DNA of 64,000 nt from Flavihumibacter solisilvae. GTDB taxonomy: Bacteria > Bacteroidota > Bacteroidia > Chitinophagales > Chitinophagaceae. Each line of letters opens with the position of its first letter. Within the stretch, counting starts at the first letter, position 1. The notes under the pieces were generated by a model, which made no database searches, had not been told where the DNA came from, and saw nothing but the letters and a program-made list of their open reading frames with translations. The stretch spans positions 1 through 64,000 of the forward strand of contig NZ_JSVC01000024.1 of NCBI RefSeq assembly GCF_000814475.1, read 5' to 3'. Below are positions 34,984-60,002 of this stretch, in pieces. Made by a program: the position numbers and the translations under genes.

Positions 34984-35013
34984 CAAAGGTAACGGTAGTT
35001 TTGTTTTTTCCAA
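34984..35013 (-). promoter_or_regulatory. Predicted promoter of the rpsJ-secY operon
   Basis: On the minus strand TTG (35011-35013), a 19-base spacer and TACCTTTG (34984-34991) match the Bacteroidota promoter exactly. The rpsL promoter has the same spacing and -7 sequence. A small TCCCAA/TTGGGA hairpin lies in the 5' leader at about 34959-34981. Confidence 0.75.
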
Positions 35014-35022
35014 AAAATTATG

Positions 35023-35058
35023 AGGGAAAAGTAAAAATTTTAAAGGGAAAAGTAAAAA
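35023..35058. repeat. 15-bp direct repeat, two copies
   Basis: AGGGAAAAGTAAAAA occurs at 35023-35037 and 35044-35058, a 21-base period, directly upstream of the rpsJ promoter. A-tracts in helical phase could bend DNA and raise promoter activity. Confidence 0.6.
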
Positions 35059-35130
35059 AGATGCCCGTGGATGGTGTGTTTCACGCCAGGGTTGGCCGGA
35101 AAAGTTACCAGAACGAAGGTTTCACGGGTG

Positions 35131-35694
35131 TCACTTCGGGAGCCTTTTAATAAGAGCAACCACTAAATATACGACCAGGCCGATCGTCAGGATAGCTGCT
35201 AGTACCGGGACCAGCAGACTTGCGATAGTTCCGCCAGCAGCGGCCAGGTTCTCGCCGGTAGCCAGTACGGCATTGCCGGTTCCGGCTGTGGTCTTGGTAC
35301 TCAGCAGGCGCAGGAACCCCGTTCCGGCCTGGATTATGCCCGCAGTTCCTCCACCGGCTATCAAGCCAAGGCCCCACCGTAAAAGTGGATCCATACCCCC
35401 AAGCGGCAGGAACGATGCTGCCAGCACCGTTCCTGCCACTACTGCGAGAGGGGTTGCAATTGCGTCGAGCAGGTTATCCACGAAAGGAATGTAATAAGCC
35501 AGCACTTCGAGCACGGCGGCTGTTCCGAAGCTGATGATCGCCGTCAGGCCAGCCATCCACTGCATCTCCGGGTTCAGGGGGATCCAGCCGAAATAAGCCG
35601 CCACCGACGCTCCAAGCAGGGGCAGGAATACCCTGAACCCGCAACAGGCACTCAGGGCAATTCCCAGGCAAACCGCGCTGATGATCGGATACAT
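35131..35694 (-). CDS. DUF4126 integral membrane protein
   Basis: The 187-residue protein has four to five hydrophobic segments, glycine- and alanine-rich, and matches the DUF4126 layout (N-terminal LSACCGFRVFLPLL and a later GTAGIIQAGTGFLR). The family has no known function. It starts 6 bases before the DPP IV stop, in the same direction, so it is probably the last gene of the peptidase operon, and it is the nearest upstream gene to rpsJ. Confidence 0.82.
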   Translation of the reverse strand: MYPIISAVCLGIALSACCGFRVFLPLLGASVAAYFGWIPLNPEMQWMAGLTAIISFGTAAVLEVLAYYIPFVDNLLDAIATPLAVVAGTVLAASFLPLGGMDPLLRWGLGLIAGGGTAGIIQAGTGFLRLLSTKTTAGTGNAVLATGENLAAAGGTIASLLVPVLAAILTIGLVVYLVVALIKRLPK

Positions 35695-35700
35695 GGCTGA

Positions 35701-37893
35701 TTATTTACCTCCCGGCGGACAGTTCTGCCTCAGGAAGTTGGTATATAATGTCCTCAGGTGTTCTATTGTTCCTTCCCCTTCTGAAATGCTGTGGGTACGG
35801 TTGGGGTAACTCATAAGCTGGAACTGCCGGTTGTTCCGGATAAGCTCGTTTATCAGCATTTCCGCATTGTTATAGTGCACATTATCATCTCCCGTTCCAT
35901 GGATATAAAGAAGCTTGCCGACCAGGTTTTTGGCATAAGTCAGGGGCGAACCTTTTATAAAATCGTCCCGGTTTTCCTGTGGCAGGCCCATATACCGCTC
36001 CTGGTAAATATTGTCATAGGTAAGCTGGTTACCTACTGCCGCTACCGCAATGCCGGTTTTATAGATCTCAGGGAACTGGAACATCAGGTTGAGCGTGGCT
36101 GAACCGCCGCCGCTCCAGCCCCATACAGCCACCCTGGACGAGTCGACATAGGACCATTTCAGCACTTCCTTTGCCGCCATCGCCTGGTCCCGGGTATTGA
36201 CCAGCCCGATCTTCCGGTACACAATCTTCCTCCATGCCCTGCCTTTGGGGACCGGCGTTCCCCTGTTGTCAACAGACACATAAATGTAACCGTCACCTGC
36301 CATATCACCATTGTAGAGGAAATTCTGGCCGATGCCATAGGTGTCTTTCACCGTCTGGCCCCAGGGTTCCGTGTATACATAAAACACAACGGGATACTTT
36401 TTGGATGGATCAAAATTTTTTGGCTTTGCCACCCAGGCGTCCATCTCCACTCCTTCTTCGGTCCGGATCTTAATGAATTCGACACCGGGTGACTTCGGAC
36501 GGGAAGTGGCCAGCAATTCACTTATGGATTTACTTCCTTTCAGGGGCTTCCCGTCTTTCACGCTGATCCATTCCTCAGCCGGGGTGGTATAGTGGTTGTT
36601 GAACTGGTGTTTTGCATATAAGGCTCCCGGTGAAATATTGTATTCATGGGTTCCCGGTTGGTCGGCGGGGGTAACTCTTTCAGCTTTGCCTTTACCATCA
36701 AGCCTGGAACGATAGAGATACAATTGGGTGGCATTTTCGGGTGATGCGAGGTAGTACAAATAGTTACCCGGTTCGTCAATAGCCACGAGATCCATGATAT
36801 CCAGGTTCCCTTTGGTAACAAGCGTCTCCTTACCTCCATCCCGGCTGATCCGGTAGGCATGACGCCACCCGTCCTTCTCACTTACCCACAAGAACTCCTT
36901 ACCACTTTTCAGCCAGTCCCACCGGCCATTTGCATAGTCCTGGTCCCACGATGGCAGGATATCTATCCACGCACTGTCCCTTTCTTCATAGATCAGCTTA
37001 GCATTGCCGGTAGCGGCATTCACCTGGAATAACCGGGAATGCTGCTGCTTGCGATCAAGGTGCTGCACAATCACTTCATCGGTACCTGGTACCCATTCCA
37101 TTCTCGGCGCATAACTGCCCAGTTTTTCGTCGTAAGGCAGGTTCATCCATTTTGTACCGGCAGCATCAGCACTCACCACTCCAATCCGGAAAGGGGAAGG
37201 CTTCTCTCCTGCCACCGGGTACTCTACCGGAACAGCTACCGGGTAGATCGAATCGGTGTTGTTCACCATCAGGTAGTCTTTAGTACCTGTTGCATCTATT
37301 TGCCAGAAGGCTATTTTTTTGCTGTCAGGACTCCACCTGAATCCATCACGGCAGAAGAACTCTTCTTCATATGCCCAGTCGAATGTACCATTGATCAGTT
37401 TTCGGCTACCGTCAGTCGTTAGCTGGGTTATCCTGTTGTTTGACAGGTCTTCGGAGTAAAGGTTATTACCTGAAACGTAGGCAATCTTCTTACTATCGGG
37501 TGAGAACTTTGCAAACATCAGTGATGACCCGGGCAGGGACGCTCCTGCGCGGGTTACTCTTTTTGTGGCGATATCGTACACATAATAATCACCCTTTGTC
37601 CAGTAGCGCCATACCCTGCGCGAATTGGTGTAGATCAGCACTTTTTGCCTGTCGGCCGAAAACGAATAACTGATTACAGTCAGCGGGTTGGCGGAGCCTT
37701 CTGGTTTCAGGTCATCCTTATTGATAAATACAGATGTTTCCCCGCCGGGTAACTCTGTAAATGTAATTGACCCGTCTTCCGAATGCTGGTAATAGCCTTT
37801 GCCATCAGCAGCCCACTGGAAACCATTTTGCGCGCCGGCAATACCGGAAAAAAATAACGAAAGAAACAATACCAGGTACCTCATGTTGTTCAA
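35701..37893 (-). CDS. Dipeptidyl peptidase IV family exported peptidase
   Basis: A signal peptide (1-21) precedes a DPP IV-type eight-bladed propeller (about 40-490) with the dipeptide-anchoring Glu pair region FDWAYEEEFF near 167-176, which marks true dipeptidyl activity. The hydrolase domain has Ser594 in GWSGGG, an Asp in GTGDDNVH and His in RTHSIS. At 730 residues it is the standard length. It removes X-Pro or X-Ala dipeptides from peptide N-termini in the periplasm. It is 13 bases after the M28 peptidase gene and probably co-transcribed. Confidence 0.94.
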   Translation of the reverse strand: MNNMRYLVLFLSLFFSGIAGAQNGFQWAADGKGYYQHSEDGSITFTELPGGETSVFINKDDLKPEGSANPLTVISYSFSADRQKVLIYTNSRRVWRYWTKGDYYVYDIATKRVTRAGASLPGSSLMFAKFSPDSKKIAYVSGNNLYSEDLSNNRITQLTTDGSRKLINGTFDWAYEEEFFCRDGFRWSPDSKKIAFWQIDATGTKDYLMVNNTDSIYPVAVPVEYPVAGEKPSPFRIGVVSADAAGTKWMNLPYDEKLGSYAPRMEWVPGTDEVIVQHLDRKQQHSRLFQVNAATGNAKLIYEERDSAWIDILPSWDQDYANGRWDWLKSGKEFLWVSEKDGWRHAYRISRDGGKETLVTKGNLDIMDLVAIDEPGNYLYYLASPENATQLYLYRSRLDGKGKAERVTPADQPGTHEYNISPGALYAKHQFNNHYTTPAEEWISVKDGKPLKGSKSISELLATSRPKSPGVEFIKIRTEEGVEMDAWVAKPKNFDPSKKYPVVFYVYTEPWGQTVKDTYGIGQNFLYNGDMAGDGYIYVSVDNRGTPVPKGRAWRKIVYRKIGLVNTRDQAMAAKEVLKWSYVDSSRVAVWGWSGGGSATLNLMFQFPEIYKTGIAVAAVGNQLTYDNIYQERYMGLPQENRDDFIKGSPLTYAKNLVGKLLYIHGTGDDNVHYNNAEMLINELIRNNRQFQLMSYPNRTHSISEGEGTIEHLRTLYTNFLRQNCPPGGK

Positions 37894-37906
37894 ATTTTAC
37901 TTCAGT

Positions 37907-39475
37907 TTAATTCACACCGCCTTTACGGGTTGGGGTTCTTTTTGCGGGCCAGGTGCCGGGTTTGCCGGTCTGCGGATTTACCGGCAGTACGATCTGGTCG
38001 CGTTTTGTTTTCTGTGGATCTTCACTCGCCATATAAGCCATGATTGCTGCGAGAATCGCATTGCTGCGCACATCATCAAATACTATCTTATCATAAGTAT
38101 CGCGGTTTGTATGCCAGGTATAGGAACCGTATGACCAGCTCAGTGAACTAAGTGAAAATGCCGGTGCACCTGCAGCTACAAAGGATGCGAAATCGGAACC
38201 GCCTGTTCCAGGTGATCCCGGGAACCGGGTCTCGATCGGGTCTTTGATGTTTGCCGGTACTACTGACAGCCAGCGGCCCAGGTATTCATATGAATGGAGG
38301 AAACCCTGTCCTGCGAGACTGGTAACCCTTCCGGTTCCATTATCCTGGTTGAACACTGCCTGGATATTACTTACGATTTCCGGGTGATCTTCGACGAATG
38401 CACGTGAGCCGTTCAATCCCTGCTCTTCGCTTCCCCAGTGACCAACCAGGATCGTCCTTTTGGGATTGGGATATAATTTCTTCAGGATCCTTGCGGCTTC
38501 CATCATCACAAGTGTACCGGTTCCGTTATCTGTTGCACCTGTTCCTCCATCCCATGAGTCGAAGTGGGCAGAAAGGATCACATATTCATCAGGCTTTTCG
38601 GTTCCTTTGATCTCAGCAATAGTATTGAAAGTAGGAACGGTTCCTTTTTCTTTGGAATCCGAGCGTACCGTAATTTTTGGTTTGTTGCCCGATTCGGTCA
38701 ACCGGTACAGCAAGCCATAGTCTTCCAATGCGATATCGATTGTCGGAATCTTCTTGGTGTTAGCGCCGAAGATCTTGTTCACACCAAATCCATTTGACCA
38801 GTTGCTCATGACAATACCCACAGCACCTGCTTTTTCCAGGGCCTCTGCCAATGTTCGGTTGTTCATGCCTGTTTTGGAGATCCGCTTGCGCCATGCTTCG
38901 GTCTGGGCAGTCCTCTCCTTCTTCATTTTCTCAAATGATTCCTTGGTAGCGAATTCCTGCCAGTTGTAGTCGGGACGCCCGGTCGGTTGGTTCATGGAGA
39001 TCATCACGAATTTCCCTTTTACCTGGGGCAGCCATTGCTGGAAGGCTATTGAATCCTGCACGTCGGGAATGATAACCAGTTCTGCAGTTACTGATTTTCC
39101 TGCTGTGGAGGGACTCCATGCGAGTTGCATCCCTTCAAGCGATTTCACTCTCGGGTGAACCATATCGATATGTGTAACGCCCCTCTCCCATCCACGCCAT
39201 TCACCCCATTTTTCATTCCTGGCCGTAATGCCCCATGTCTTGTATTTTTCTACTGCCCAATCATGTGCCTGCTGCATCTGTGGTGAGCCGACCAGGCGCG
39301 GACCGATCACATCCATCAGTTCGTGAGCGAGTTTCTCGAGTTGGGAGTTTTCAGTTGCCTCCTTTACTATTCCTGCTACTATAACAGAATCGGGAGTTTG
39401 TGCAAATGCCTGTTGCAAATTCAGGAGTGCGATCAGCATGATCAGCCTGAGGGTCCTGTACATACGAAGTTTCAT
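37907..39475 (-). CDS. Exported M28 family zinc aminopeptidase
   Basis: A signal peptide (about 1-25) leads to a split catalytic domain with an inserted PA domain (about 140-270). Zinc ligands are visible: His and Asp in AHFDSWDGGTGATDNGTG, Glu pair in GSEEQGLNGS, Asp in NQDNGTGR and a final His in YTWHTNRDTYD. The arrangement matches carboxypeptidase Q/aminopeptidase M28 families. It hydrolyses N-terminal residues or dipeptides in the periplasm or outside the cell. It lies 13 bases upstream of the DPP IV gene, so a joint peptide-degrading operon is likely. Confidence 0.93.
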   Translation of the reverse strand: MKLRMYRTLRLIMLIALLNLQQAFAQTPDSVIVAGIVKEATENSQLEKLAHELMDVIGPRLVGSPQMQQAHDWAVEKYKTWGITARNEKWGEWRGWERGVTHIDMVHPRVKSLEGMQLAWSPSTAGKSVTAELVIIPDVQDSIAFQQWLPQVKGKFVMISMNQPTGRPDYNWQEFATKESFEKMKKERTAQTEAWRKRISKTGMNNRTLAEALEKAGAVGIVMSNWSNGFGVNKIFGANTKKIPTIDIALEDYGLLYRLTESGNKPKITVRSDSKEKGTVPTFNTIAEIKGTEKPDEYVILSAHFDSWDGGTGATDNGTGTLVMMEAARILKKLYPNPKRTILVGHWGSEEQGLNGSRAFVEDHPEIVSNIQAVFNQDNGTGRVTSLAGQGFLHSYEYLGRWLSVVPANIKDPIETRFPGSPGTGGSDFASFVAAGAPAFSLSSLSWSYGSYTWHTNRDTYDKIVFDDVRSNAILAAIMAYMASEDPQKTKRDQIVLPVNPQTGKPGTWPAKRTPTRKGGVN

Positions 39476-39538
39476 TTGATGATTTATTCCATTGATTCCC
39501 GAATGTATAAAAAACCCTGATACGGAAGCCCCTGTATA

Positions 39539-41821
39539 TTAACGACCAATCAGCAGAGGTTGACTTATGCTGTAGTTCTTACCTGTTATCCTCATAAAGT
39601 AAATACCAGGGGCGAAATAATTGAGGTAAATTATTTGCCTGGAAACTATTGGTGAAGCGGGCAGTTTGAATTCACTTACCCGCTGACCGATACTGTTGTA
39701 CATAAGTAGGGTAAGAGGGGTTTCGGAATTGTATTCTGCAATCACGAATTGAAAAGCGGGATTGGGAAAAAACCTGAAATGGTACGGGTTGCTGACCCTG
39801 GGATCAGTAGGAACTACCGTTACTTCACACACGTTATTCTGACAGAATAAGGAATAGTCAGTTATTTCACCACTCAGGGCACGGAAAGCATCGATCTTCC
39901 CCCAACCTGAAACATTGTTTGGAAGCGGACCATTCAGCAGCGTATAGTCGTCAGCGTAAGCTGTGGATTTGATCCTGTTGATAACGGAATCACGGATGAA
40001 GTCCGGGTACTTCTCCCAGATCATGGCTGCAACACCGGCAGTGATCGGGCTCGCAGCACTTGTTCCACTAAAAGCCTGGATGTCTGTATCAATAATAAAT
40101 TCATGATCAAGGAAGTCGTCCATCCGCGATCGCGGCGTTAAAACATTCTCACCGGGCGACAAGATATCCGGCTTGATCCGTCCATCGAGCGTGGGACCAT
40201 GGCTCGTGAAGTAAGTCAGCTGGCAGGGCTGGTAACCATAAACTACTTTATTCTGTCTCTTGTTCACGTAACAGCTTCGGATATTGTATGCACCCGAAGA
40301 CAGAACAGAAAAAGCATGTGAAGGAATATTTGTAGTATACCCGTTATCGGAACTATTATAGGTCGGATCATCGGGATAAGGATTGTTCCCAAAGAAATAT
40401 ATAGGATGCAGATTCCAGAATGGGTACCAGGCATGCACTGTACCGGTTCCTTTAAAAATAAAGCGATACAGGTGGTCATCGAAGATGACACCATTGGTAC
40501 CGGACGTATGGTCATCGGTAGTAATGATCAGCTCATCATAATCATCATTATAGGAAGAAGCAGTGAAGGTGATGGTGGAAGAAGGGTTGCCGTTGGGCAA
40601 TTTACTATCGAAGGAAAGTGGCATGGGACTACGGACAAGATCTGCAATGTTTATATATGGCGTCTGGTAATACACGGAATCCGGACTGATATTCGGCCGG
40701 TTGATGTCACCCAGTTTTGCCTCACCAATCGAGATAGAAAGCGTGGATGAGAATTGCTTCGGAACAGTCACATAAAGGGATGCTTTGTACGCACAACGAA
40801 AGAAGCCATAACTGGAATCTTTATGGATCGGGAAGCCACCCCAGTGTTTCCAGGTGTTGCCATTGTTACCGGCCGAAACACAGATCAGCAGGTCGTTGCG
40901 TTCGGCACAAAAGTTATCGATTGCTCTTTCCACCAGGGTTTGCCCGTCGTGCGGACCACCATCCATTACCCCAAGACTGATATTGATCACGCATTTCTTT
41001 TTCTGTGCCTTTGCTTTCGAATAAATAAACGCGATGGCATCAATTACCCGGTCAGAACGAAGCAGGGTATCTGCAAATGCTGTAAGGGCCACAGAGATGA
41101 TCTCTGCATTTGTTGCTACACCGTTTTTTCCGGCAGCCAGCCCTGTTACCGGTGTACCATGACCGCCGTAACCGAAACGCTCCTGCATGCTCCACCTGGC
41201 AATTTGCTGGTTCTGAAATTTTCGCACGTACTGATCGATTGAGTCCGGCGCCCAGACATGCCCGTATAGATATCCTTCTGGTGGCGTACCGGCGTAGTCC
41301 ATATTCCAAAGTGTCTTTATGCGTGTCTTACCCGTGGCATCCATAAAATCCGGATGCGTGATGTCAATGCCATCATCTATTATTCCCATTATAACATTGC
41401 TGCCGGAATAGGACTTGTCCAATGGGTTCAATCCACCCAGCACCTTATCAACACCAGTCACTTTTTTTATGATGGTGTCGGTCTTAACCAGCAATAGGGG
41501 AAGTTCGATCCGCTTTATGGATGGCGAAGCAGCCAGCCGCTCAACCTGGTCGATCGGGATGTCTGCTGTAGCGATGTTATTTGTCCTGGTGCGTATATGG
41601 ATTTCCGTGGGTGGCAAAGCAACCAGTTGTGCCTGGTCTGTGAACTCTATGAAAACCGAAACGAAACTGCCGGTTTTGGTGTTGGATATGAAACGCTGGT
41701 CTTTCTGTTCCGTTGCCAGGAAGTGTTTGAGCGTAGCCCCCAATTTGGAAGCAGGTTTAACCTGGCTATAACCTGCATAAAACAGAAGTAGTAAGAGCCA
41801 GGTGACCGGCGCTTTCCTCAT
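39539..41821 (-). CDS. Subtilisin-like S8 peptidase with T9SS sorting domain
   Basis: A signal peptide (1-19) and a probable inhibitory N-terminal propeptide (about 25-115) come before the S8 domain. The triad is Asp149 in IIDDGI, His221 in GHGTPVTG and Ser588 in GTSAASP. A long insert (about 320-520) separates His from Ser, a feature of S8A subtilases with protease-associated or jelly-roll inserts. Residues near 685-760 form a type IX sorting domain beginning RFFPNP. The protein should be secreted by T9SS and act extracellularly on proteins. It may feed oligopeptides to the DPP IV and M28 enzymes downstream. Confidence 0.94.
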   Translation of the reverse strand: MRKAPVTWLLLLLFYAGYSQVKPASKLGATLKHFLATEQKDQRFISNTKTGSFVSVFIEFTDQAQLVALPPTEIHIRTRTNNIATADIPIDQVERLAASPSIKRIELPLLLVKTDTIIKKVTGVDKVLGGLNPLDKSYSGSNVIMGIIDDGIDITHPDFMDATGKTRIKTLWNMDYAGTPPEGYLYGHVWAPDSIDQYVRKFQNQQIARWSMQERFGYGGHGTPVTGLAAGKNGVATNAEIISVALTAFADTLLRSDRVIDAIAFIYSKAKAQKKKCVINISLGVMDGGPHDGQTLVERAIDNFCAERNDLLICVSAGNNGNTWKHWGGFPIHKDSSYGFFRCAYKASLYVTVPKQFSSTLSISIGEAKLGDINRPNISPDSVYYQTPYINIADLVRSPMPLSFDSKLPNGNPSSTITFTASSYNDDYDELIITTDDHTSGTNGVIFDDHLYRFIFKGTGTVHAWYPFWNLHPIYFFGNNPYPDDPTYNSSDNGYTTNIPSHAFSVLSSGAYNIRSCYVNKRQNKVVYGYQPCQLTYFTSHGPTLDGRIKPDILSPGENVLTPRSRMDDFLDHEFIIDTDIQAFSGTSAASPITAGVAAMIWEKYPDFIRDSVINRIKSTAYADDYTLLNGPLPNNVSGWGKIDAFRALSGEITDYSLFCQNNVCEVTVVPTDPRVSNPYHFRFFPNPAFQFVIAEYNSETPLTLLMYNSIGQRVSEFKLPASPIVSRQIIYLNYFAPGIYFMRITGKNYSISQPLLIGR

Positions 41822-41881: not shown

Positions 41882-42316
41882 TTATTTCTTATCCAGCATT
41901 TGCTTCAGTCGCTTTATATCGGCCATCTCTTCCGGGGAGAACGATTCATTGAGCTGGAATTTTGACTGAAGGAACAGTCCGCGTTTGTGATTGGGGTAAG
42001 CTGCTAACAGCCTTTCCAAAGTTTCGCCGATGGAGGAGTCTTTAGTAACCACAGGCGACCTGGTGATCTCAACAGGTTTGACCTTATCGGGCATGCGCTT
42101 GATAATAGTTTCGATAGCAGCCAGTTTGCCGGGGGCGATGCCTTCAATCTGCGAGGCCTTTGCATGCAGCCCGATCAGTTGTTTCTTGCTTAAGGTTCCC
42201 CATTTCAGGTAGTGCTTATACAGGCTGATGATAAACGATGAAACAGGATAGGCAATGATGCAGTCTTCGAGAACTGTATTGATGATATCGATGGAAGGTT
42301 TACCTGCTTTCGTCAT
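41882..42316 (-). CDS. Conserved hypothetical protein, 144 aa
   Basis: I do not recognise a named family. The protein is basic, soluble and largely helical, with a central KRMPDKVKPVEIT segment and a C-terminal helix rich in Lys and Met. A TATCTTTG -7-like motif lies 5 bases before the start (42321-42328), but this is too close for an ordinary leader. The gene starts directly after the fusA terminator. Function unknown. Confidence 0.72.
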   Translation of the reverse strand: MTKAGKPSIDIINTVLEDCIIAYPVSSFIISLYKHYLKWGTLSKKQLIGLHAKASQIEGIAPGKLAAIETIIKRMPDKVKPVEITRSPVVTKDSSIGETLERLLAAYPNHKRGLFLQSKFQLNESFSPEEMADIKRLKQMLDKK

Positions 42317-42333
42317 TCGGCAAAGATAAAAAA

Positions 42334-42355
42334 AGGGCTGTCTTTAGACAGCCCT
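42334..42355 (-). terminator. Intrinsic terminator of fusA
   Basis: A 9-10 bp stem with core GGGCTGTC/GACAGCCC is followed on the minus strand by TTTTTTT. It lies 24 bases after the fusA stop and shows that fusA is not co-transcribed with downstream genes. Confidence 0.85.
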
Positions 42356-42378
42356 CTATATTGCTTAAACTTCTATGC

Positions 42379-44623: not shown

Positions 44624-44631
44624 CAAAGGTA
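44624..44631 (-). promoter_or_regulatory. Predicted -7 element (TACCTTTG) of fusA
   Basis: TACCTTTG on the minus strand matches the Bacteroidota -7 consensus. The -33 position 19 bases further holds CTG, one mismatch to TTG. It lies about 100 bases before the fusA start in a 320-base gene-free spacer. Confidence 0.5.
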
Positions 44632-45384: not shown

Positions 45385-45428
45385 GTAGGGTTTTGGTAGG
45401 GTTTTGGTAGGGTTTTGGTAGGGTTTTG
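45385..45428. repeat. Tandem repeat, four exact copies of GTAGGGTTTTG
   Basis: Four 11-bp units fill 45385-45428 without interruption, followed by two exact copies of AGCCTATTATT at 45440-45461. The region lies between the histone-like gene and the minus-strand sugar-oxidation genes. Confidence 0.9.
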
Positions 45429-46154: not shown

Positions 46155-46183
46155 ATGTTTTTGTTTTCGGTTATTTATTACTG

Positions 46184-49606: not shown

Positions 49607-49658
49607 ATCTCTAATTTGAAGTTTGAGTTTGAAGTTTTGTTAAGACGATAAGCGATTG

Positions 49659-50543: not shown

Positions 50544-50590
50544 TTGTCGGGTGATCAGACTCCTGCGATGGAGACTTTTTATACATCAAA

Positions 50591-52121: not shown

Positions 52122-53861
52122 ATGGGTGATCTTCAGATCAAGAAACAAGCAACTAAGTATGATGCCGTAATTGTGGGCTCTGGTGCTGGTGGCGGTATGG
52201 CCGCGTATATTCTCGCCAATGCCGGACTTAAGGTATGTCTACTTGAAGCGGGTCCAATGTACGACCCTGCTGTTAATGTAACGCAACTCAAAAATCCCTG
52301 GGATTCACCCCGAAGAGGTGCAAGCACCAGGTTCCGTCCATTTGGCGATTTTGATGCATGTTACTGGGGCTGGGAAGTGGATGGCGAGCCATACACTAAG
52401 GCCCCTGGTACGCAGTGGGACTGGTTCCGCGCACGCATGCTGGGTGGCCGTACGAACCACTGGGGAAGGATTTCTTTAAGGTTCGGACCCAAGGACTTCC
52501 AGCGCAAGAGCATTGACGGTCTGGGCGAAAACTGGCCGATCACCTATAATGATATTAAGCCCTTCTATGATCGTGTAGATAAACTGATCGGGGTGTTCGG
52601 AACCAACGAAGGTCTTGAAAACGACCCCGATGGATTTTTCCTCCCTCCTCCCAAACCCAGGCTGCATGAACTATTCATCAAACGCGGTGCTGAACGTGCC
52701 GGCGTAAAAGTAATTCCCGGCCGCCTGAGCATGCTTACCCAGAAGATCAACGATGACCGGGGTGCATGCTTCTTCTGCGGACAATGCGGACGCGGATGCC
52801 AGGTGTACGCAGACTTCTCCTCTTCCAGTGTATTGATCAAGCCTGCAATGAAAACCGGGAATATCGATGTTATCCCGAATGCAATGGCTCGTGAAGTATT
52901 AACAAATAAAGAAGGACTTGCCACAGGTGTATCATATGTGAACAAGGATGACATGCTGGAATACCAGGTTGAAGGAAAAGTAGTTGTGCTGGCTGCAAGT
53001 GCCTGTGAAAGTGCCCGTCTCATGCTGAACTCCAAGTCTCAGCGCCATCCGAACGGACTCGCCAACTCAAGTGACGTAGTAGGTCGTTACCTGCACGATT
53101 CAACCGGTGCCGACATGGGCGGTGTACTGCCGAACCTTATGGGCCGGAAACGATATAATGAAGATGGTGTAGGTGGTATGCACATCTATTCACCCTGGTG
53201 GCTTGATAATAAAAAGCTTGACTTCCCACGTGGTTACCACATTGAGTACTGGGGTGGTATGGGCCAGCCTTCCTACGGATTTGGCGGCGGCATCCAGAAC
53301 CTCAACGGGAAATTCCTGGTTAACGGAACACAGAAGGAAGCCGGCGGATATGGTAAGTCACTGAAGGAAGATTACCGCTTCTTCTACGGCGCCAATGTGG
53401 GTATGGCCGGACGCGGAGAAGCAATTGCCTATCGCGAAAATAATTGCCAGATAGATCCTAATGTGGTTGACAAATATGGTATCCCCGTGTTGAAGTTTAA
53501 TGTGAAATGGAGTGAACATGAGATCAACCAGGCAAAGCACATGAAGGAAACATTTAAGGAGATCATGCATGAAATGGGTGCGATCGTAACCTGGGGTGGT
53601 GATGATGGTCCGGAGAATAATTACGGACTGCACACTCCAGGAAAGATCATCCATGAAGCAGGTACCGCAAGAATGGGTAACGATCCGAAACAATCTGCTT
53701 TGAACAAATGGAACCAGGCACACGACTGTAAAAACCTGTTCGTGGTTGATGGTGCCCCGTTTGTATCGCAGGCAGATAAAAACATCACCTGGACTATCCT
53801 TGCGTTGTCAATGCGCGCAAGCGAATACATTGTTGACCAGCTGAAAAAACAAAATATCTAA
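52122..53861 (+). CDS. GMC family FAD dehydrogenase with Cys cluster (plus arm)
   Basis: The 579-residue protein has the FAD motif GSGAGGG near 20-26, catalytic His in IIHEAGTARMG and Asn in KNITWT. Cys216, 219, 222 and 226 (C-x2-C-x2-C-x3-C) form a denser cysteine cluster than in the minus-arm paralogues, and would suit an iron-sulfur centre for electron transfer to cytochrome c. There is no signal peptide, so it is expected to be exported with the small subunit encoded 16 bases downstream. It is clearly related to, but more distant from, the two minus-arm GMC proteins. The family includes glucoside 3-dehydrogenase large subunits. Confidence 0.94.
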   Translation: MGDLQIKKQATKYDAVIVGSGAGGGMAAYILANAGLKVCLLEAGPMYDPAVNVTQLKNPWDSPRRGASTRFRPFGDFDACYWGWEVDGEPYTKAPGTQWDWFRARMLGGRTNHWGRISLRFGPKDFQRKSIDGLGENWPITYNDIKPFYDRVDKLIGVFGTNEGLENDPDGFFLPPPKPRLHELFIKRGAERAGVKVIPGRLSMLTQKINDDRGACFFCGQCGRGCQVYADFSSSSVLIKPAMKTGNIDVIPNAMAREVLTNKEGLATGVSYVNKDDMLEYQVEGKVVVLAASACESARLMLNSKSQRHPNGLANSSDVVGRYLHDSTGADMGGVLPNLMGRKRYNEDGVGGMHIYSPWWLDNKKLDFPRGYHIEYWGGMGQPSYGFGGGIQNLNGKFLVNGTQKEAGGYGKSLKEDYRFFYGANVGMAGRGEAIAYRENNCQIDPNVVDKYGIPVLKFNVKWSEHEINQAKHMKETFKEIMHEMGAIVTWGGDDGPENNYGLHTPGKIIHEAGTARMGNDPKQSALNKWNQAHDCKNLFVVDGAPFVSQADKNITWTILALSMRASEYIVDQLKKQNI

Positions 53862-53877
53862 CCTTCATAACCCTGAT

Positions 53878-54543
53878 ATGGACAGAAGAAAATCGCTCAA
53901 AGCCCTTGCTCTCGGATCATTGTCCACCGGCATGCTTCTTGACGCCTGTAAGGATACCGATAAAAAAGCTGCTCCCAAGGAGGACGAAAAAAATATTGCC
54001 GGCAACCTTGACCGGATGAAAGAGGAAGTAGCCCATTACAAGAATGTTACCAGTGAAAAATTCTTCACGGAACATGAGATGGCCACCATTACCATCCTCG
54101 CAGACATTATCATCCCGAAAGATGAAGTAAGCGGAAGCGCATCCGATGCGAAAGTTCCTGACTTCATCGAGTTTATTGTGAAGGATATGCCTAACCACCA
54201 GACACCAATGCGCGGTGGTCTTCGCTGGCTCGACCTCCAGTGCCTCAGGCAATTTGGAAAAGCGTTTAAGGATTGCAGTGAGCAGGAACGAATCAATATG
54301 GTGGACCAGATCGCTTATCCTAAAAAAGCGAAACCGGAAATGGCCCAGGGCGTGGCTTTCTTCAATAAAATGCGTGACCTGACCGCATCCGGTTTCTATA
54401 CTTCGCAAATTGGTGTAGCAGATATCGGATACGCCGGAAACAAACCCAACCAATGGAATGGTGTTCCAGATGATGTACTGAAGCAATACGGGCTCGCCTA
54501 CAGCGAAAAAGAACTAAAAGAGTGTGTCAGCTTCTCTAAATAA
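53878..54543 (+). CDS. Gluconate 2-dehydrogenase subunit 3-like small subunit (plus arm)
   Basis: A twin-arginine signal (MDRRKSLKALALGS) ends in a LLDAC lipobox-like site (Cys23). The mature part matches subunit 3 with EMATITILADIIIPKDE and a C-terminal GFYTSQIGVADIGYAGN region. It should pair with the GMC subunit at 52122 to form the exported dehydrogenase heterodimer. It lies 16 bases after that gene and 11 bases before the next. Confidence 0.92.
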   Translation: MDRRKSLKALALGSLSTGMLLDACKDTDKKAAPKEDEKNIAGNLDRMKEEVAHYKNVTSEKFFTEHEMATITILADIIIPKDEVSGSASDAKVPDFIEFIVKDMPNHQTPMRGGLRWLDLQCLRQFGKAFKDCSEQERINMVDQIAYPKKAKPEMAQGVAFFNKMRDLTASGFYTSQIGVADIGYAGNKPNQWNGVPDDVLKQYGLAYSEKELKECVSFSK

Positions 54544-54554
54544 ATTCAAAGACC

Positions 54555-55712
54555 ATGAGCAGGAAACTCAGGATGGGAATGATCGGTGGAGGAAAAGATG
54601 CGTTTATAGGTGGGGTACACAGGATCGCTGCGATAATGGATGGAGAAACTGAACTGGTTTGCGGGGCGTTCAGCAGCAACAGGGAGAAGTCAAAGGAAAG
54701 TGGTGCATTGTTACATCTTCCGGCTGAAAGGGTGTATGGATCATATGAAGAAATGATCCTCGAAGAAAAAGAGTTGCCTGAAGGAATACGGATGGATTTT
54801 GTGAGTATCGTTACTCCCAACCATGTGCATTTTGCCCCGGCAAAACTGGCATTGGAAAATGGGTTTCACGTGGTGCTCGACAAACCCATGACCTTTTCAC
54901 TGGAAGAGGCAAAGGAGCTGAAGAAAATTGCCGACAATTCGGGTTTGCTGTTTTGCCTTACACATACCTATACCGGTTACCCGATGATCAAGGAGGCCCG
55001 CGAAATTGTGGCATCTGGTAAACTCGGGAAACTGAGAAAAGTTTACGTCGAATACCCGCAGGGATGGCTGAGCAAATACCTGGAAGTAACCGATTACAAA
55101 CAGGCACAGTGGCGTACTGATCCCAAGCGCAGCGGTATTGCAGGCGCAATGGGTGATATCGGGACGCATGCTTTCAACATGGCCGAATATGTAAGCGGGC
55201 TGAAAGTAACCAGCATTTGTGCAGACCTGAACATCAATGTGCCTGGTCGCCTGCTTGATGATGACGGTACGGTGTTATTGAAATTTGAGGGAGGTGCAAG
55301 CGGATTCCTTTTTGCCACGCAGGTGGCTGCGGGTGAAGAAAACAATGTTAAGATCCGCATCTATGGCGAGGAAGGCGGAATTGAATGGCAACAGGAAGAT
55401 GCGAATACATTGAAGGTAAAATGGTTTGACCAGCCTACTCAGGTATTACGCACCGGCGCTCCTTACCTTGGAAGTTTTGCGAAGCACAATTACCGTGTTC
55501 CCCCGGGGCACCCGGAAGGATACCTTGAAGCATTCGCGAACCTTTACAGAAATTTCGCTTTGACTTTGCGCGCGCGTCTCGATGGCCGTACTCCTGAAAA
55601 GGAGTGGCTCGACTTCCCCGGGATCGAAGAAGGCATCCGCGGAATGGCGTTCATCGAGAACGTCGTAAAAAGTGGCAGGAGTGAGAGGAAATGGACTGAG
55701 TTCGAACTGTGA
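54555..55712 (+). CDS. Gfo/Idh/MocA family NAD(P)-dependent dehydrogenase
   Basis: The 385-residue protein has a Rossmann motif MIGGGKDAFIGGVHR, the DKPMTFSLEEA segment, and a C-terminal substrate domain with GDIGTHAFNMAEYV containing the catalytic histidine. There is no signal peptide, so it works in the cytoplasm. Family members in related islands reduce or oxidise 3-keto sugars with NAD(H). It probably returns 3-keto-glucose or a related compound to the normal sugar. It is 11 bases after the small subunit gene. Confidence 0.92.
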   Translation: MSRKLRMGMIGGGKDAFIGGVHRIAAIMDGETELVCGAFSSNREKSKESGALLHLPAERVYGSYEEMILEEKELPEGIRMDFVSIVTPNHVHFAPAKLALENGFHVVLDKPMTFSLEEAKELKKIADNSGLLFCLTHTYTGYPMIKEAREIVASGKLGKLRKVYVEYPQGWLSKYLEVTDYKQAQWRTDPKRSGIAGAMGDIGTHAFNMAEYVSGLKVTSICADLNINVPGRLLDDDGTVLLKFEGGASGFLFATQVAAGEENNVKIRIYGEEGGIEWQQEDANTLKVKWFDQPTQVLRTGAPYLGSFAKHNYRVPPGHPEGYLEAFANLYRNFALTLRARLDGRTPEKEWLDFPGIEEGIRGMAFIENVVKSGRSERKWTEFEL

Positions 55713-55743
55713 TTAGACGGAGCTCGCAGCACAACGAATTTTT

Positions 55744-55769
55744 ACTTTTTAATTTTGACTTTTTAATTT
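55744..55769. repeat. 12-bp direct repeat, two copies
   Basis: ACTTTTTAATTT occurs at 55744-55755 and 55758-55769, a 14-base period, immediately before the start of the TIM barrel gene at 55775. Confidence 0.55.
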
Positions 55770-55774
55770 GAAAT

Positions 55775-56830
55775 ATGACCACATTAAAAGGCCCCGGTAT
55801 TTTCCTTGCGCAGTTTCTTGGTGACCAGGCTCCCTTCAACAATCTCCGTTCCATCTGCCTTTGGGCAGAATCACTGGGATTTAAAGGTGTACAGATCCCA
55901 AGTTGGGACAGCAGGTGCATCGACCTTAAACAGGCGGCAGAAAGCAAAACTTATGCAGATGAAATAAAAGGCATCGTAAATGAATGCGGGCTTTCCATTA
56001 CGGAATTGTCTACGCACCTGCAGGGACAACTCGTTGCCGTTCACCCGGCTTACAATGAGTTGTTTGATGGCTTTGCACCGGAAGAGGTTCGCGGCAATGC
56101 TGCTGCCCGCACAGAATGGGCAGTACAGCAGCTGAAATATGCAGCCAAAGCATCTCAGAACCTTGGACTCAATGCCCATGCTACGTTTAGCGGAAGCCTG
56201 TTGTGGCATACGGTTTACCCATGGCCCCAGCGTCCGGCAGGACTGGTAGAAACCGGTTTCCGTGAACTTGGAAAGCGGTGGAAACCTATTCTCGATGTAT
56301 TTGATGAAAATGGCGTTGATCTCTGTTATGAGATCCATCCGGGCGAAGACCTCCACGATGGCATCTCTTACGAGATGTTCCTGAAGGAAGTGAATGACCA
56401 TCCACGCGCCTGCCTGCTTTACGATCCCTCACATTTCGTGCTGCAGTGCCTCGACTATCTCGAATATATTGACATCTATCATGAGCGCATCAGGATGTTC
56501 CATGTAAAGGATGCTGAATTCAATCCAACCGGCAGGCAGGGTGTATATGGCGGTTACCAGAGCTGGATCGATCGTGCCGGCAGGTTCCGTTCCCTTGGCG
56601 ACGGGCAGGTTGATTTCGGAGCAATCTTCAGCAAGCTGGCTGCATATGACTATAAAGGCTGGGCGGTAATGGAATGGGAATGTTGCCTGAAACATCCGGA
56701 AGATGGTGCATCAGAAGGTGCTATCTTTATAAAGGATCACATCATCAGGGTTACCGAAAAAGCATTTGATGATTTTGCGGGAACCGGGTCAGACGAAGCT
56801 TTCAATAAAAAAATTCTAGGCATTCAATAA
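55775..56830 (+). CDS. Cytoplasmic sugar phosphate isomerase/epimerase-like TIM barrel
   Basis: The 351-residue TIM barrel belongs to the xylose isomerase-like superfamily. Candidate metal ligands are Glu and His in CYEIHPGEDLHDG, Asp and His in LLYDPSHFVLQ, His in FHVKDAEF and Glu in AVMEWECC. No signal peptide is present, unlike the two other barrels of this island. It may isomerise a keto-sugar made by the upstream enzymes. It is 62 bases after the Gfo/Idh/MocA gene. Confidence 0.88.
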   Translation: MTTLKGPGIFLAQFLGDQAPFNNLRSICLWAESLGFKGVQIPSWDSRCIDLKQAAESKTYADEIKGIVNECGLSITELSTHLQGQLVAVHPAYNELFDGFAPEEVRGNAAARTEWAVQQLKYAAKASQNLGLNAHATFSGSLLWHTVYPWPQRPAGLVETGFRELGKRWKPILDVFDENGVDLCYEIHPGEDLHDGISYEMFLKEVNDHPRACLLYDPSHFVLQCLDYLEYIDIYHERIRMFHVKDAEFNPTGRQGVYGGYQSWIDRAGRFRSLGDGQVDFGAIFSKLAAYDYKGWAVMEWECCLKHPEDGASEGAIFIKDHIIRVTEKAFDDFAGTGSDEAFNKKILGIQ

Positions 56831-56840
56831 ACAAACGAAA

Positions 56841-57230
56841 ATGAAAAAGTTCTTCATCGTGCTGGGCGTAAGCGCCATTGCCATTGCATGTGGAAACAAC
56901 CAGACAACTGAAAAAAAGGCGGACGAACCCGCGGCAAAAGAAGAGCAGGCAGCACCTGCACCTGCAGAGGATGACAAGGGGGTTGAACTGATTGCGTCAA
57001 GCGATTGTCTTACCTGTCACAAGGTTAACGAAAAGGCCATCGGCCCTTCTTATTCTGACGTTGCAAAAAAATACACTGCAGACGACGCTACTATTACTGA
57101 TCTGGCAAACAAGATCATAAAAGGTGGCAGTGGTGTATGGGGACAGGTTCCCATGACCCCTCACCCACAGGTATCTGAGGACGATGCGAAAACAATGGTG
57201 AAATACATACTGACACTCAAAAACCAATAA
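56841..57230 (+). CDS. Lipoprotein c-type cytochrome
   Basis: A short leader ending IAIAC (Cys17) predicts a lipoprotein. An Ala/Pro/Glu/Lys linker (20-45) connects it to a mono-haem cytochrome c domain with CLTCH (Cys56, Cys59, His60) and an axial Met105 in PMTPHP. It should accept electrons from the exported GMC dehydrogenase and pass them to the respiratory chain. It is the only electron carrier in the island and lies 10 bases after the TIM barrel gene. Confidence 0.95.
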   Translation: MKKFFIVLGVSAIAIACGNNQTTEKKADEPAAKEEQAAPAPAEDDKGVELIASSDCLTCHKVNEKAIGPSYSDVAKKYTADDATITDLANKIIKGGSGVWGQVPMTPHPQVSEDDAKTMVKYILTLKNQ

Positions 57231-57232
57231 GA

Positions 57233-57985
57233 ATGATCAAAAGGATATTTGCTTTTTCCGCTACCCTGGCAGTACTGGCATCGTGTGGTTCTTCCAACAA
57301 AGTATCTGATAACGCGGCTGCAGACAATACACTGAGCAAGCAGGAGAAAAAAGAAGGCTGGCAATTATTGTTCGACGGAACTTCAACCAAAGGCTGGCAT
57401 ACATTCGGCAAAACCATTACCGGCCCGGCATGGAAAGTTGACAATGGTACGCTTCACCTCGATGCTTCCGCCAAAGGTGCCGACTGGCAGACAGGTGGCG
57501 GCGGTGATATCGTAACGGAAGAGGCTTTCACTAACTATCACCTCAAGCTCGAGTGGAAGATTTCCAAAGATGGTAACAGTGGTGTAATCTTCAACGTACA
57601 GGATGAGCCAGCTAAATACAAATACGTTTGGTATACCGGTCCGGAAATGCAGGTGCTCGATAACAACGGTCATCCTGATGCAAAGATTCACAAACACAGG
57701 GCTGGTGATCTTTACGACCTGGTTGCATCAACACCTGAAACTGTGAAGCCTGTAGGAGAATGGAACCTTGCTGAGATCATCCAGAACAATGGCAAGCTTG
57801 AATTTAAACTTAACGGAACAACTGTAGTGTCAACAAGCTATGGTGACGATGCCTGGAAGGCACTCGTGGCCGGTAGTAAGTTTAAAGGAATGCCTGACTT
57901 CGGAAAATTCAGCACAGGTAAACTGGCACTCCAGGATCATGGTAATGACGTATGGTACAAAAACATTAAGATCCTCAAACTCTAA
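57233..57985 (+). CDS. DUF1080 (3-keto-disaccharide hydrolase family) lipoprotein
   Basis: The signal ends in LASC (Cys19), a lipobox. The mature part is a concanavalin-like beta-sandwich of the DUF1080/PF06439 family, with GWQLLFDGTSTKGWHTF near 41-58, LEWKISKDGNSGVIF and a final ALQDHGNDVWYKNIKI, all family signatures. The family was renamed after members that cleave 3-keto-disaccharides. A surface role in releasing 3-keto-glucose from oxidised glycosides fits the neighbouring genes. It is two bases after the cytochrome gene. Confidence 0.93.
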   Translation: MIKRIFAFSATLAVLASCGSSNKVSDNAAADNTLSKQEKKEGWQLLFDGTSTKGWHTFGKTITGPAWKVDNGTLHLDASAKGADWQTGGGGDIVTEEAFTNYHLKLEWKISKDGNSGVIFNVQDEPAKYKYVWYTGPEMQVLDNNGHPDAKIHKHRAGDLYDLVASTPETVKPVGEWNLAEIIQNNGKLEFKLNGTTVVSTSYGDDAWKALVAGSKFKGMPDFGKFSTGKLALQDHGNDVWYKNIKILKL

Positions 57986-58056: not shown

Positions 58057-58938
58057 TTAAACCAGGTTAGCTTTGATATACTTAATGCTTGATTGAATAC
58101 TTCCGATCGGCTCAGGAACGTAATTATTTTCCTGCTCTACGTAAAAATGCTTCAATCCTGCTACTCCTGCTGCTTTAAAGATGCGTTTGTAGTCAATTGA
58201 TCCATTTCCGATCTCGGTATTCTGCTCACGCTTCACTTTATCCATATCCTTTACATGCCAGAGCGGAACGCGGCCTTTATGCTGGTTGAACAGGTTGATA
58301 GGATCAAGTCCAGCGAAAACAACCCAGTACAGGTCAAGTTCCCACTTCACGAGATTTGCATCCGTTTCCTTGCTGAATACATCAAACCCTGTTGTTCCAT
58401 CATACGACTTGAATTCAAAGTCGTGGTTATGATAAGCCATCTGAATTCCGGCATTTTTGCAAAGCTCACCAGCGACATTCAGCCGCGCGGCAATCTTTTT
58501 ATAGTCGTCAAGATTCTGGCGTCTTTCCGTATGCAGCCAGGGAATTACTAGGTACTCGTGTTTCATTTCAACAGCAGCAGCAATCATGTCTTTCATTTCG
58601 GCCTCTCCCTTTTCTGATTCCTCGTACAGGAATGACTGGGGCAGGTAATGACCGCTTGGAGATACCAGTCCCAGTGAATTGGCATAAGCAGCAAATTCTT
58701 TAACCGGGATCCCAAAGAATTTACCCTGGCCATAACCAAACATTTCGATCTTTTTATAACCAGCGGCGGCTACCTTGTCAAGAACTCCCTTTGGATCCTT
58801 GCTGATCAGGTCCCGTAGTGTATATAGCTGAATCCCTACTTCGCCTTTTTTCCTGGCGGCAAGCAGCATATCAGGCAGGAACAACATGGCCGGAGTTACT
58901 ATCGCGGCGTTTTTCAGAAAGCTTCTGCGTGTATTCAT
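58057..58938 (-). CDS. Exported sugar isomerase/epimerase-like TIM barrel (third barrel)
   Basis: The start at 58938 is chosen because it gives a twin-arginine-like NTRRSFLKNA leader with a hydrophobic stretch; a longer in-frame start at 59013 would add 25 residues of AT-rich spacer. The barrel carries GIQLYTLRD, AYHNHDFEF, ELDLYWV, WHVKDMD and YVEQEN motifs with the usual metal ligands. It resembles the 49659 product in function class but differs in sequence. It is separated from the plus arm by a shared terminator and converges with it. Confidence 0.88.
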   Translation of the reverse strand: MNTRRSFLKNAAIVTPAMLFLPDMLLAARKKGEVGIQLYTLRDLISKDPKGVLDKVAAAGYKKIEMFGYGQGKFFGIPVKEFAAYANSLGLVSPSGHYLPQSFLYEESEKGEAEMKDMIAAAVEMKHEYLVIPWLHTERRQNLDDYKKIAARLNVAGELCKNAGIQMAYHNHDFEFKSYDGTTGFDVFSKETDANLVKWELDLYWVVFAGLDPINLFNQHKGRVPLWHVKDMDKVKREQNTEIGNGSIDYKRIFKAAGVAGLKHFYVEQENNYVPEPIGSIQSSIKYIKANLV

Positions 58939-59016
58939 TTTATTATTGGAATGAACTATGAATATAGTAAAAAGTAAAAATGAAAAGTGAAAAATGAAAA
59001 AGAGCGGAAACAAAAA

Positions 59017-59040: not shown

Positions 59041-59063
59041 GTATGAAAAAGTAGATAATACTG

Positions 59064-59531
59064 TTAGATGCGGAAGTGTGAGAATGCCTTGTTGGCTTCA
59101 GCCATACGATGGGTGTCTTCTTTTTTCTTGAATGCACCACCTTCGCCCTTGCTTGCTGCAACGATTTCGTTGGCAAGTTTATCGGCCATGCTGCGTCCGT
59201 TTCTTTCGCGGCTGAAGCGGATCAGCCATTTTATGCTGAGGGATACTTTCCTGTCCTGGCGTACCTCAGCAGGGATCTGGAAGGTTGCACCACCGATACG
59301 ACGGCTGCGAACTTCAACAGCAGGCGTTACGTTGGACAAAGCCCTTTTCCAGATTTCGTAACCATCTTCATTTGTGATTTTGGCTACTTTATCAATTGCA
59401 TCGTAGAAGATTTCAAAAGCAACGCTTTTTTTACCTTGCCACATAATATTGTTAACAAAACGTGTAACCAGTTTATCATTATACCTGGCATCAGGTGCCA
59501 GAGGTAATTTTTTGGCTTGTGCTTTCCTCAT
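59064..59531 (-). CDS. rpsG: 30S ribosomal protein S7
   Basis: The 155-residue protein begins [19 protein letters not shown] and carries the RNA-binding [17 protein letters not shown] and the C-terminal [16 protein letters not shown] segments. S7 nucleates assembly of the 30S head. It is 18 bases after rpsL. An intrinsic terminator follows it, so it no longer reads into fusA. Confidence 0.98.
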
Positions 59532-59549
59532 GGAAGATCTTTTTTATAT

Positions 59550-59948
59550 TTATTTTTTACCTGCTGGTTTTGCTCCACCTTTTTCTTTCTTGGTTCCGTA
59601 TTTAGAACGGCTTTGCTTCCTGTCCTTCACACCGGCAGTATCAAGGCTACCACGAACAATGTGGTAACGTACACCCGGAAGATCTTTCACACGACCACCG
59701 CGGATCAGTACGATCGAGTGCTCCTGCAGGTTGTGGCCTTCACCTGGGATGTAGGCAATAACCTCTACTTTGTTGGTAAGGCGAACCTTAGCCACTTTAC
59801 GCAGAGCGGAGTTAGGTTTTTTGGGCGTTGTGGTGTACACACGGGTACAAACACCGCGACGCTGAGGGCAGGCATCCAATGCCCTGGATTTGCTCTTTGC
59901 CTTAATAATTTCTCTACCTTTTCTTACTAATTGCTGTATTGTAGGCAT
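59550..59948 (-). CDS. rpsL: 30S ribosomal protein S12
   Basis: The chosen start gives the conserved [14 protein letters not shown]-terminus; an upstream in-frame start at 60002 would add 18 residues not found in the family and overlaps the promoter. The protein has [32 protein letters not shown], the decoding-centre region with the lysine that is changed in streptomycin-resistant strains, and [17 protein letters not shown]. Length 132 residues is standard. Confidence 0.98.
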
Positions 59949-59972
59949 TCTAACCTTATTTAATTGGGACGG

Positions 59973-60002
59973 CAAAGGTAGAATCCATTGCCGAAAAAAC
60001 AA
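59973..60002 (-). promoter_or_regulatory. Predicted promoter of rpsL-rpsG
   Basis: TTG (60000-60002), a 19-base spacer and TACCTTTG (59973-59980) on the minus strand match the Bacteroidota promoter exactly and are identical in spacing and -7 sequence to the rpsJ promoter. The start codon follows 25 bases downstream. Confidence 0.78.

Follow-up and report, generated by a model that had tools for sequence, protein, structure and literature searches.

The long conservation of the str-S10 gene order is an old question. In Bacteroidota the primary-sigma promoters carry the element TTTG or TAnnTTTG, and in E. coli the S10 leader RNA is bound by L4. Here we describe positions 1 to 64,000 of contig NZ_JSVC01000024.1 of Flavihumibacter solisilvae, a member of the Chitinophagaceae (the whole stretch of 64,000 nucleotides (nt) is hereafter called the window), in which the str-S10 superoperon is split into pieces by unrelated genes, together with its relatives and with a structured RNA found between rpsJ and rplC.

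In the part of Brandis 2021 (PMC8046335) available to us, which covers Gammaproteobacteria and Bacilli, small insertions between str and S10 are followed by full disconnection, vertically inherited and attributed to relaxed selection on gene order, and one insertion inside an operon, rplL-rsmC, is reported as well; a text search of that part did not find "Bacteroid", "promoter" or "terminator". Candidate ribosomal-protein (r-protein) leaders were presented by Eckert and Weinberg 2020 (PMC7247131), among them an L4 leader in Archaeoglobi, while the available part of their Table 1 holds no L3 or L4 leader of Bacteroidota. Searching the open-licence PMC literature gave no account of the break-up in Chitinophagaceae or of the rpsJ-rplC RNA, nor a description of how the S10 operon is controlled in Bacteroidota. 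Events of this kind have been described in other phyla; what differs here is a nearly family-wide cut that also falls inside the str operon and comes with predicted signals. Having short, cargo-bearing and scattered states within one family, the Chitinophagaceae provide a natural experiment on gene order, and the stated transcription signals make the split testable.

Break-up of the superoperon in the window and across the family

The core genes and the transcription signals predicted around them in the window are:

59973-59980, minus strand: TAnnTTTG (-7) promoter element of rpsL-rpsG, extended motif TACCTTTGC-CGTCCCAA
59550-59948, minus: rpsL (S12), PF00164
59064-59531, minus: rpsG (S7), PF00177
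59017-59040, minus: predicted intrinsic terminator after rpsG
44624-44631, minus: TAnnTTTG promoter element of fusA
42379-44523, minus: fusA (EF-G), by Pfam
42332-42357, minus: predicted intrinsic terminator after fusA
34984-34991, minus: TAnnTTTG promoter element of rpsJ
34647-34952, minus: rpsJ (S10), by Pfam
23185-34280, minus: rplC to secY (S10 and spc genes), some named by Pfam and the others from order and size
23131-23162, minus: predicted intrinsic terminator after secY

The gaps between these genes are 18 nt (rpsL/rpsG), 14,540 nt (rpsG/fusA), 7,426 nt (fusA/rpsJ), 366 nt (rpsJ/rplC) and 20 nt (rplC/rplD). The ancestral order rpsL-rpsG-fusA-rpsJ-rplC and the common strand are retained in the window, and the contiguity fails, the two large gaps being filled by foreign genes (cargo 1 at the rpsG/fusA seam and cargo 2 at the fusA/rpsJ seam). 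A preliminary description of the window had stated that rpsL-rpsG, fusA and rpsJ to secY keep their order and strand and that unrelated genes interrupt them at gene boundaries, at exactly these two seams, and both statements hold with the genes verified by Pfam. Its list of breaks was correct for the two seams but incomplete, overlooking that the block infA-rpsM-rpsK-rpsD is also split off and located on a different contig of the same genome (C11, locus L227), where it is preceded by the promoter-like site TATCTTTGCGCTCCCAAAA, which shows the same extended promoter motif. Judged from the terminators and promoters listed above, the str-S10 pieces of the window are predicted to be several transcripts.

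To compare the layout across the family, a genus-spread draw of 117 genomes from 91 genera was used, all at least 90% complete and including the window's own genome; the family was taken as Chitinophagaceae, the drawn genomes sharing fusA with named loci, e.g. Hydrotalea and Segetibacter. The fusA search was run at E 1e-250, and six genomes without a match were counted as not determinable. At the rpsG/fusA seam the gap is below 100 nt in 3 genomes, 100–699 nt in 19, 0.7–20 kb in 28 and 20–100 kb in one, with the two genes on opposite strands in 8, in the wrong order in 3, on different contigs in 47 and not determinable in 8. The corresponding numbers for fusA/rpsJ are 10 genomes at 100–699 nt, 39 at 0.7–20 kb, 2 at 20–100 kb and 4 above 100 kb, with 7 on opposite strands, one in the wrong order, 45 on different contigs and 9 not determinable. 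Both seams are short (<700 nt) in just 6 of the 106 genomes where both could be determined, and the synteny comparison thus reveals a split that is nearly family-wide. None of the ten single-contig genomes (G030, G043, G047, G075, G104, G123, G129, G130, G132 and G135) is contiguous; five retain the order within 20 kb and five have at least one piece far off.

For the outside control, 55 other families of the same class contributed 105 genomes. Among the 103 with both genes, 94 have rpsG and rpsJ 2,159–2,725 bp apart (median 2,196.5), which leaves space for one fusA, its presence between the two not having been checked, and the remaining 9 have them on different contigs. That the genes are contiguous elsewhere, as previously proposed, is therefore mostly so in the class outside the family. 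The window is ordinary within Chitinophagaceae, and the family is unusual within its class.

When compared with the available part of Brandis 2021 (PMC8046335), the fusA-rpsJ insertions of 0.7–20 kb in 39 of 117 genomes resemble the described pattern, as do two fully disconnected relatives in which a DPP IV gene has been left beside fusA. In contrast to that part of the paper, the Chitinophagaceae are also cut inside the str operon (rpsG/fusA 0.7–20 kb in 28 of 117), the cut is seen in most of the sampled genera, and predicted terminators and promoters mark the seams, also in relatives where these are short.

Predicted transcription boundaries at the seams

Each core piece of the window had been proposed to possess its own promoter and terminator, and both were recovered for every piece, as predictions from the sequence. 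The three core terminators rank among the strongest hairpin-plus-T sites in scans of the window; the overall number of these sites does not exceed the level of shuffled sequence (28 against 21.2, standard deviation (sd) 4.5, and 16 against 21.8, sd 5.1). The bare TAnnTTTG box is common in the window, with 30 observed and 36.3 expected. The extended form TAnnTTTGCnnYCCnAA occurs three times, solely before rpsL, fusA and rpsJ, with an expectation of 0.0 from 20 Markov resamples, and the same three sites appeared as one 24-nt family in a blind direct-repeat search.

A census of these signals was made in 140 fetched stretches (60, plus 80 of 181 listed), thus covering part of the 117 genomes, counting as a terminator any hairpin with a folding energy of at most -9 kcal/mol that precedes a T-tract and lies no more than 130 nt from the stop codon. 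Terminators were predicted after rpsG in 72/75 loci, fusA in 77/81, rpsL in 0/74 and rpsJ in 9/77, and in the letter-shuffled controls in 2/75, 1/81, 0/74 and 0/77, respectively. Sorted by seam, the rpsG terminator is found at 19/19 seams of 100–700 nt, 26/26 of 0.7–20 kb, 25/26 that are dispersed and 2/2 where the other gene was not found, and at 0/2 compact (<100 nt) seams, one further compact seam being too short; the fusA terminator is found at 10/10, 36/38, 30/32 and 1/1 of the first four classes.

The TAnnTTTG box lies upstream of rpsL in 76/76 loci. Upstream of fusA it is present at 18/19 short seams, 22/27 of 0.7–20 kb, 29/31 dispersed, 2/2 with the other gene not found and 0/2 compact, and upstream of rpsJ at 10/10 short, 36/37 of 0.7–20 kb, 27/28 dispersed and 2/2 with the other gene not found. 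It was seen upstream of rpsG in 0/35 loci (41 gaps were too short for the test) and of rplC in 3/70. Shuffled controls gave 10/76 for rpsL, 10/81 for fusA, 11/77 for rpsJ, 0/35 for rpsG and 2/70 for rplC. A first set of loci, drawn by fusA similarity and having at least eight genomes in common with the 117-genome draw, gave for the family terminators after rpsG in 31/32, fusA in 51/55, rpsL in 0/30 and rpsJ in 2/30, and promoters before rpsL in 32/32, fusA in 53/59, rpsJ in 32/32, rpsG in 0/16 and rplC in 0/25. For the 20 loci of this first set that lie outside the family, terminators were found after rpsG in 0/20 and after fusA in 0/16 (four too short), and promoters before rpsL in 8/17, rpsG in 1/11, fusA in 0/4, rpsJ in 0/12 and rplC in 0/4. 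The seams are therefore predicted transcription boundaries, short seams bearing the same signals as long ones.

The -7 box at rpsL, fusA and rpsJ is like that of other primary-sigma promoters of Bacteroidota but, unlike the plain promoter, those of rpsL and rpsJ in most cases have a longer signature in common. Its strict form, TACCTTTGC-nn-TCC-nAA, is present among the boxed family promoters in 63/76 cases for rpsL and 53/75 for rpsJ, and a looser pyrimidine form in 42/71 fusA promoters. Since a few of the eight outside rpsL loci with a box have a similar tail, the extended signature may be older than the Chitinophagaceae.

Directly 3' of the T-tract of the fusA terminator in the window a promoter-like box, TATCTTTG, is located at 42328-42321 (minus), starting 12 nt ahead of a 144-aa open reading frame (ORF) of cargo 2; the predicted terminator and this putative box almost overlap (42316-42357, minus).

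Cargo genes and the opening of the seams

The genes that fill the two seams in the window are:

58057-59013, minus: cargo 1, xylose-isomerase-like TIM barrel (AP_endonuc_2, by Pfam), which stays after rpsG in two same-genus genomes
52122-57985, plus: cargo 1, GMC oxidoreductase, gluconate 2-dehydrogenase subunit 3-like protein, Gfo/Idh/MocA, TIM barrel, cytochrome c and 3-keto-disaccharide hydrolase
45585-51886, minus: cargo 1, MFS transporter, TIM barrel, two GMC oxidoreductases (tandem duplicates) and gluconate 2-dehydrogenase subunit 3-like protein
44845-45306, plus: cargo 1, Lys/Ala-rich histone H1-like protein (HC2, 34.6 bits, under the 40-bit cut-off)
41882-42316, minus: cargo 2, 144-aa ORF with no Pfam match
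35701-41821, minus: cargo 2, subtilase S8 (weak Por_Secre_tail), M28 peptidase and DPP IV/S9 peptidase
35131-35694, minus: cargo 2, DUF4126 protein

The gene set of cargo 1 resembles what we take to be 3-keto-sugar metabolism. Its earlier reading as sugar-oxidation and histone-like genes has to be corrected in that the strands are mixed (52122-57985 plus) and there is a single histone-like gene whose HC2 match falls below the cut-off; the peptidases ascribed to cargo 2 are confirmed (three), to which the DUF4126 protein and the 144-aa ORF have to be added. The cargo families vary between clades, and in another set of relatives the fusA/rpsJ seam is occupied by a beta-helix protein and an LPG-synthase-like protein. 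When five cargo proteins of the window were searched against PADLOC there were zero matches, and defence cargo was rejected.

Within the genus the layout recurs. In one genome (L229) the genes of cargo 1 come after rpsL-rpsG, arranged as in the window, and continue almost to the end of the contig; gmcC, in the window a diverged duplicate of gmcB, has no match of its own there, and fusA starts at base 896 of another contig. The 3-keto block adjoins fusA in L048 and L003, the DPP IV and DUF4126 genes precede rpsJ in L048 and L002, and the succession fusA-cargo 2-rpsJ, with some of the genes, is found in two same-genus loci.

The history of the seams was followed on a tree of 144 fusA protein rows, the eight loci duplicated between samples having been removed from the trees. 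At least 24 changes between short and apart are needed for rpsG/fusA and at least 15 for fusA/rpsJ. Three loci (L042, L088 and L135) have less than 100 nt between rpsG and fusA, lack both the terminator and the fusA promoter there, and have 7.8 kb between fusA and rpsJ; in a fourth, L139, the rpsG-fusA gap of 37 nt is too short for the test and rpsJ is on another contig. These loci suggest that the fusA/rpsJ seam opened before rpsG/fusA. One genome, G072, has two fusA genes on contigs C14 and C20 (L104 and L041), one lying within the str region and another that shares 83% identity with the query; removing the row of the second copy, L041, leaves the change counts unaltered.

A DPP IV family lies in sense orientation at the fusA/rpsJ seam in 18 loci of 16 genomes, and its tree mirrors the fusA groups (Puia-like, Niastella-like and window-like) with one long outlier, L098. 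In two close relatives the DPP IV gene is beside fusA and rpsJ is 253 and 314 kb away. From the agreement of the trees the peptidase appears to be an old, mostly vertically inherited resident of the seam in several clades. The proposal that all cargo is recent was dropped once the family had appeared in several clades, and the preliminary term "lineage-specific cargo" covers two time scales: it suits the 3-keto-sugar block, found at rpsG/fusA in few loci, but not the old DPP IV-like peptidase.

We consider it likely that self-contained units arose early in the family, that this relaxed the selection on linkage, and that cargo then turned over and the units scattered. Early in the Chitinophagaceae the str-S10-spc superoperon would have ceased to be a single transcription unit. 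A terminator would have arisen after fusA and a Bacteroidota-type promoter before rpsJ; almost every lineage would also have gained a terminator after rpsG and a promoter before fusA. Once rpsL-rpsG, fusA and rpsJ to secY had their own start and stop, similar promoters could have replaced physical linkage for co-expression, and insertions between a terminator and the next promoter would then be cheap; cargo would have accumulated, turned over and sometimes settled for long, and in many lineages the pieces would have scattered. The predicted signals, the placement at two seams, the restriction to the family and the recurrence are documented by the sequence comparisons; we infer that the signals function as predicted, that they predate the cargo and that the driver was a relaxation of selection and not an advantage. 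A tentative extension, to which we give somewhat less than an even chance, is that the at least four often scattered units (rpsL-rpsG, fusA, rpsJ to secY and the one beginning infA-rpsM) form a regulon through the shared extended promoter, that a family-specific r-protein leader RNA between rpsJ and rplC balances the largest unit, and that linkage is dispensable.

Several points weigh against early self-contained units. All promoters and terminators are sequence predictions, and the shuffles used for both preserved single-letter composition only; terminator-like sites also follow rpsJ in the 9/77 family loci and, outside the family, rpsL in 1/14 and rpsJ in 2/12, and few fusA promoters have the extended motif in its strict form (6/71). 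Many of the "apart" calls are pieces on different contigs (the 47 and 45 of 117), for which the distance is not given. The tree is built from fusA alone and its deep branches are weak; 20 and 18 row states were assigned manually, by contig ends or genome positions, the changes being 22 and 15 without them. The early-branching clades have fusA and rpsJ apart wherever this is known, and some short seams may have re-closed after cargo loss, DPP IV being present in several clades, one of them early. Because the DPP IV resident is old and the early clades are apart, "signals first" is less sure for fusA/rpsJ than for rpsG/fusA.

If cargo had instead been inserted first into a joined operon, terminators and promoters would have come later to rescue expression, and the short seams would stem from later deletions of cargo. 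In the part of PMC8046335 available, Gammaproteobacteria and Bacilli show this course of insertion and subsequent disconnection, and both the age of the DPP IV resident and the early clades with fusA and rpsJ apart speak for this order of events. Against it, an insertion into a joined operon would immediately leave fusA, or the S10 genes, without the promoter that served them, and several early clades have short rpsG/fusA seams in which no sign of past cargo was seen; we regard it as rather unlikely. The preliminary description had suggested that highly expressed neighbourhoods favour the placement of cargo at the seams, to which the reuse of the same two seams and the persistence of the sense-oriented DPP IV gene in 18 loci of 16 genomes would lend themselves. 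This view is not supported by the comparison: cargo 1 lies on both strands, predicted terminators part cargo from core, the cargo families depend on the clade, and many genomes have no neighbourhood remaining, at least one piece being far away in 5/10 single-contig genomes. Attraction by expression is accordingly improbable, and a relaxed need for linkage would explain the cargo better, because the cargo is partly on the opposite strand and lies beyond the terminators and the core pieces are often not neighbours.

A genomic island or mobile element delivering cargo to fixed hot spots is very improbable. The seams are used repeatedly and an A-rich low-complexity repeat (66-75% alike) lies close to each outer end (35.0 and 58.97 kb), but these end repeats are just low-complexity, no long inverted repeat frames either block, the window has no tRNA gene, and no recombinase or transposase is among the scanned cargo genes of the window and its relatives (small ORFs were unscanned); moreover, members of the genus have the cargo in a common order, and the DPP IV tree is for the most part congruent with that of fusA. 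With no integrase or transposase, tRNA or specific flanking repeats in the window, this explanation was rejected. As for an assembly artefact, the window's own genome is a 75-contig draft, but both blocks recur in part in same-genus assemblies and single-contig relatives have comparable gaps, hence the layout is not an assembly error and an artefact has a negligible probability.

Three repeats were observed within cargo 1. The histone H1-like gene (44845-45306, plus), which adjoins fusA, is made of short internal tandem repeats; a perfect 11-bp tandem repeat of 4.2 copies, GTAGGGTTTTG, is situated at 45385-45430, between the histone-like gene and the remaining cargo 1; and the neighbouring GMC oxidoreductase genes (46184-49606, minus) are diverged tandem duplicates, 72-73% identical over stretches of 300 and 181 nt that are 1,743 nt apart.

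A candidate leader RNA between rpsJ and rplC

The spacer between rpsJ and rplC (34281-34646 in the window) is 65-495 nt long in 90 family loci, with a median of 282, compared with 2-101 nt in 12/14 loci outside the family and near 500 nt in the other two, both from Rhodothermales. It contains in the window:

34354-34499, minus: candidate structured leader RNA (model R1, 82 bits, E 2e-17)

A strict regular expression matched 34/90 spacers, and 31 of these 34 matches, all from relatives with the window excluded, were the seed from which the RNA model was built. The model matches 75/90 family spacers; the 15 without the RNA are mostly short spacers in early-branching rows, where the RNA is patchy. 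Among 109 genomes of the class, in a search with stricter filters that may lose weak matches, it was found in two (the window's own genome, with one match, and G030), i.e. in 2/4 family members and 0/105 others.

When analysing the alignment, 20 base pairs were found, 9 of them changed on both sides, a number reached in 9/500 shuffles. Paired cells amount to 98.2%, against 92.5% when shuffled and 31-60% when slid, and the covariation is 0.264 against 0.148, with 0/500 shuffles as high, in an alignment that was fitted to the model and with related rows, which inflate such scores. A model-free MAFFT alignment made beforehand likewise gave 20 pairs with 9 compensated; the first alignment took 54 of 74 motif-bearing spacers. 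A third hairpin, GGAU-UGA-stem-GUCY, folds in 67/75 spacers when each is folded singly.

The RNA is probably an r-protein leader. Like the E. coli S10 leader and the leaders in the available part of PMC7247131, it is structured, lineage-restricted and next to r-protein genes but, unlike the E. coli S10 leader, it is positioned after rpsJ and before rplC. From this position our guess for the ligand is L4 or L3. As a covarying RNA before rplC it is a concrete candidate for r-protein autoregulation in Bacteroidota, and a more novel lead than the split of the superoperon.

A search of Rfam revealed no credible match to this RNA and none at the gathering score, the sole permissive match, WT1-AS_2 (E 7.6), being due to chance. 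Mimicry of 23S rRNA was also considered, and an ordered three-element similarity was seen, to which 4 and 3 of 2000 Markov resamples match too; being weak and built on elements picked post hoc, it was not used. The 23S search for this comparison gave no match in the window's own genome and matches in two relatives, a first probe having found nothing.

Another small structure is found at the other end of rpsJ:

34962-34979, minus: small inverted repeat, CCCAA...TTGGG, where the rpsJ mRNA is predicted to start (found by eye and unscored)

It is a possible 5' stabilising hairpin, and relatives show similar hairpins at the 5' end of the rpsJ mRNA, in which the letters have changed yet apparently pair when inspected by eye.

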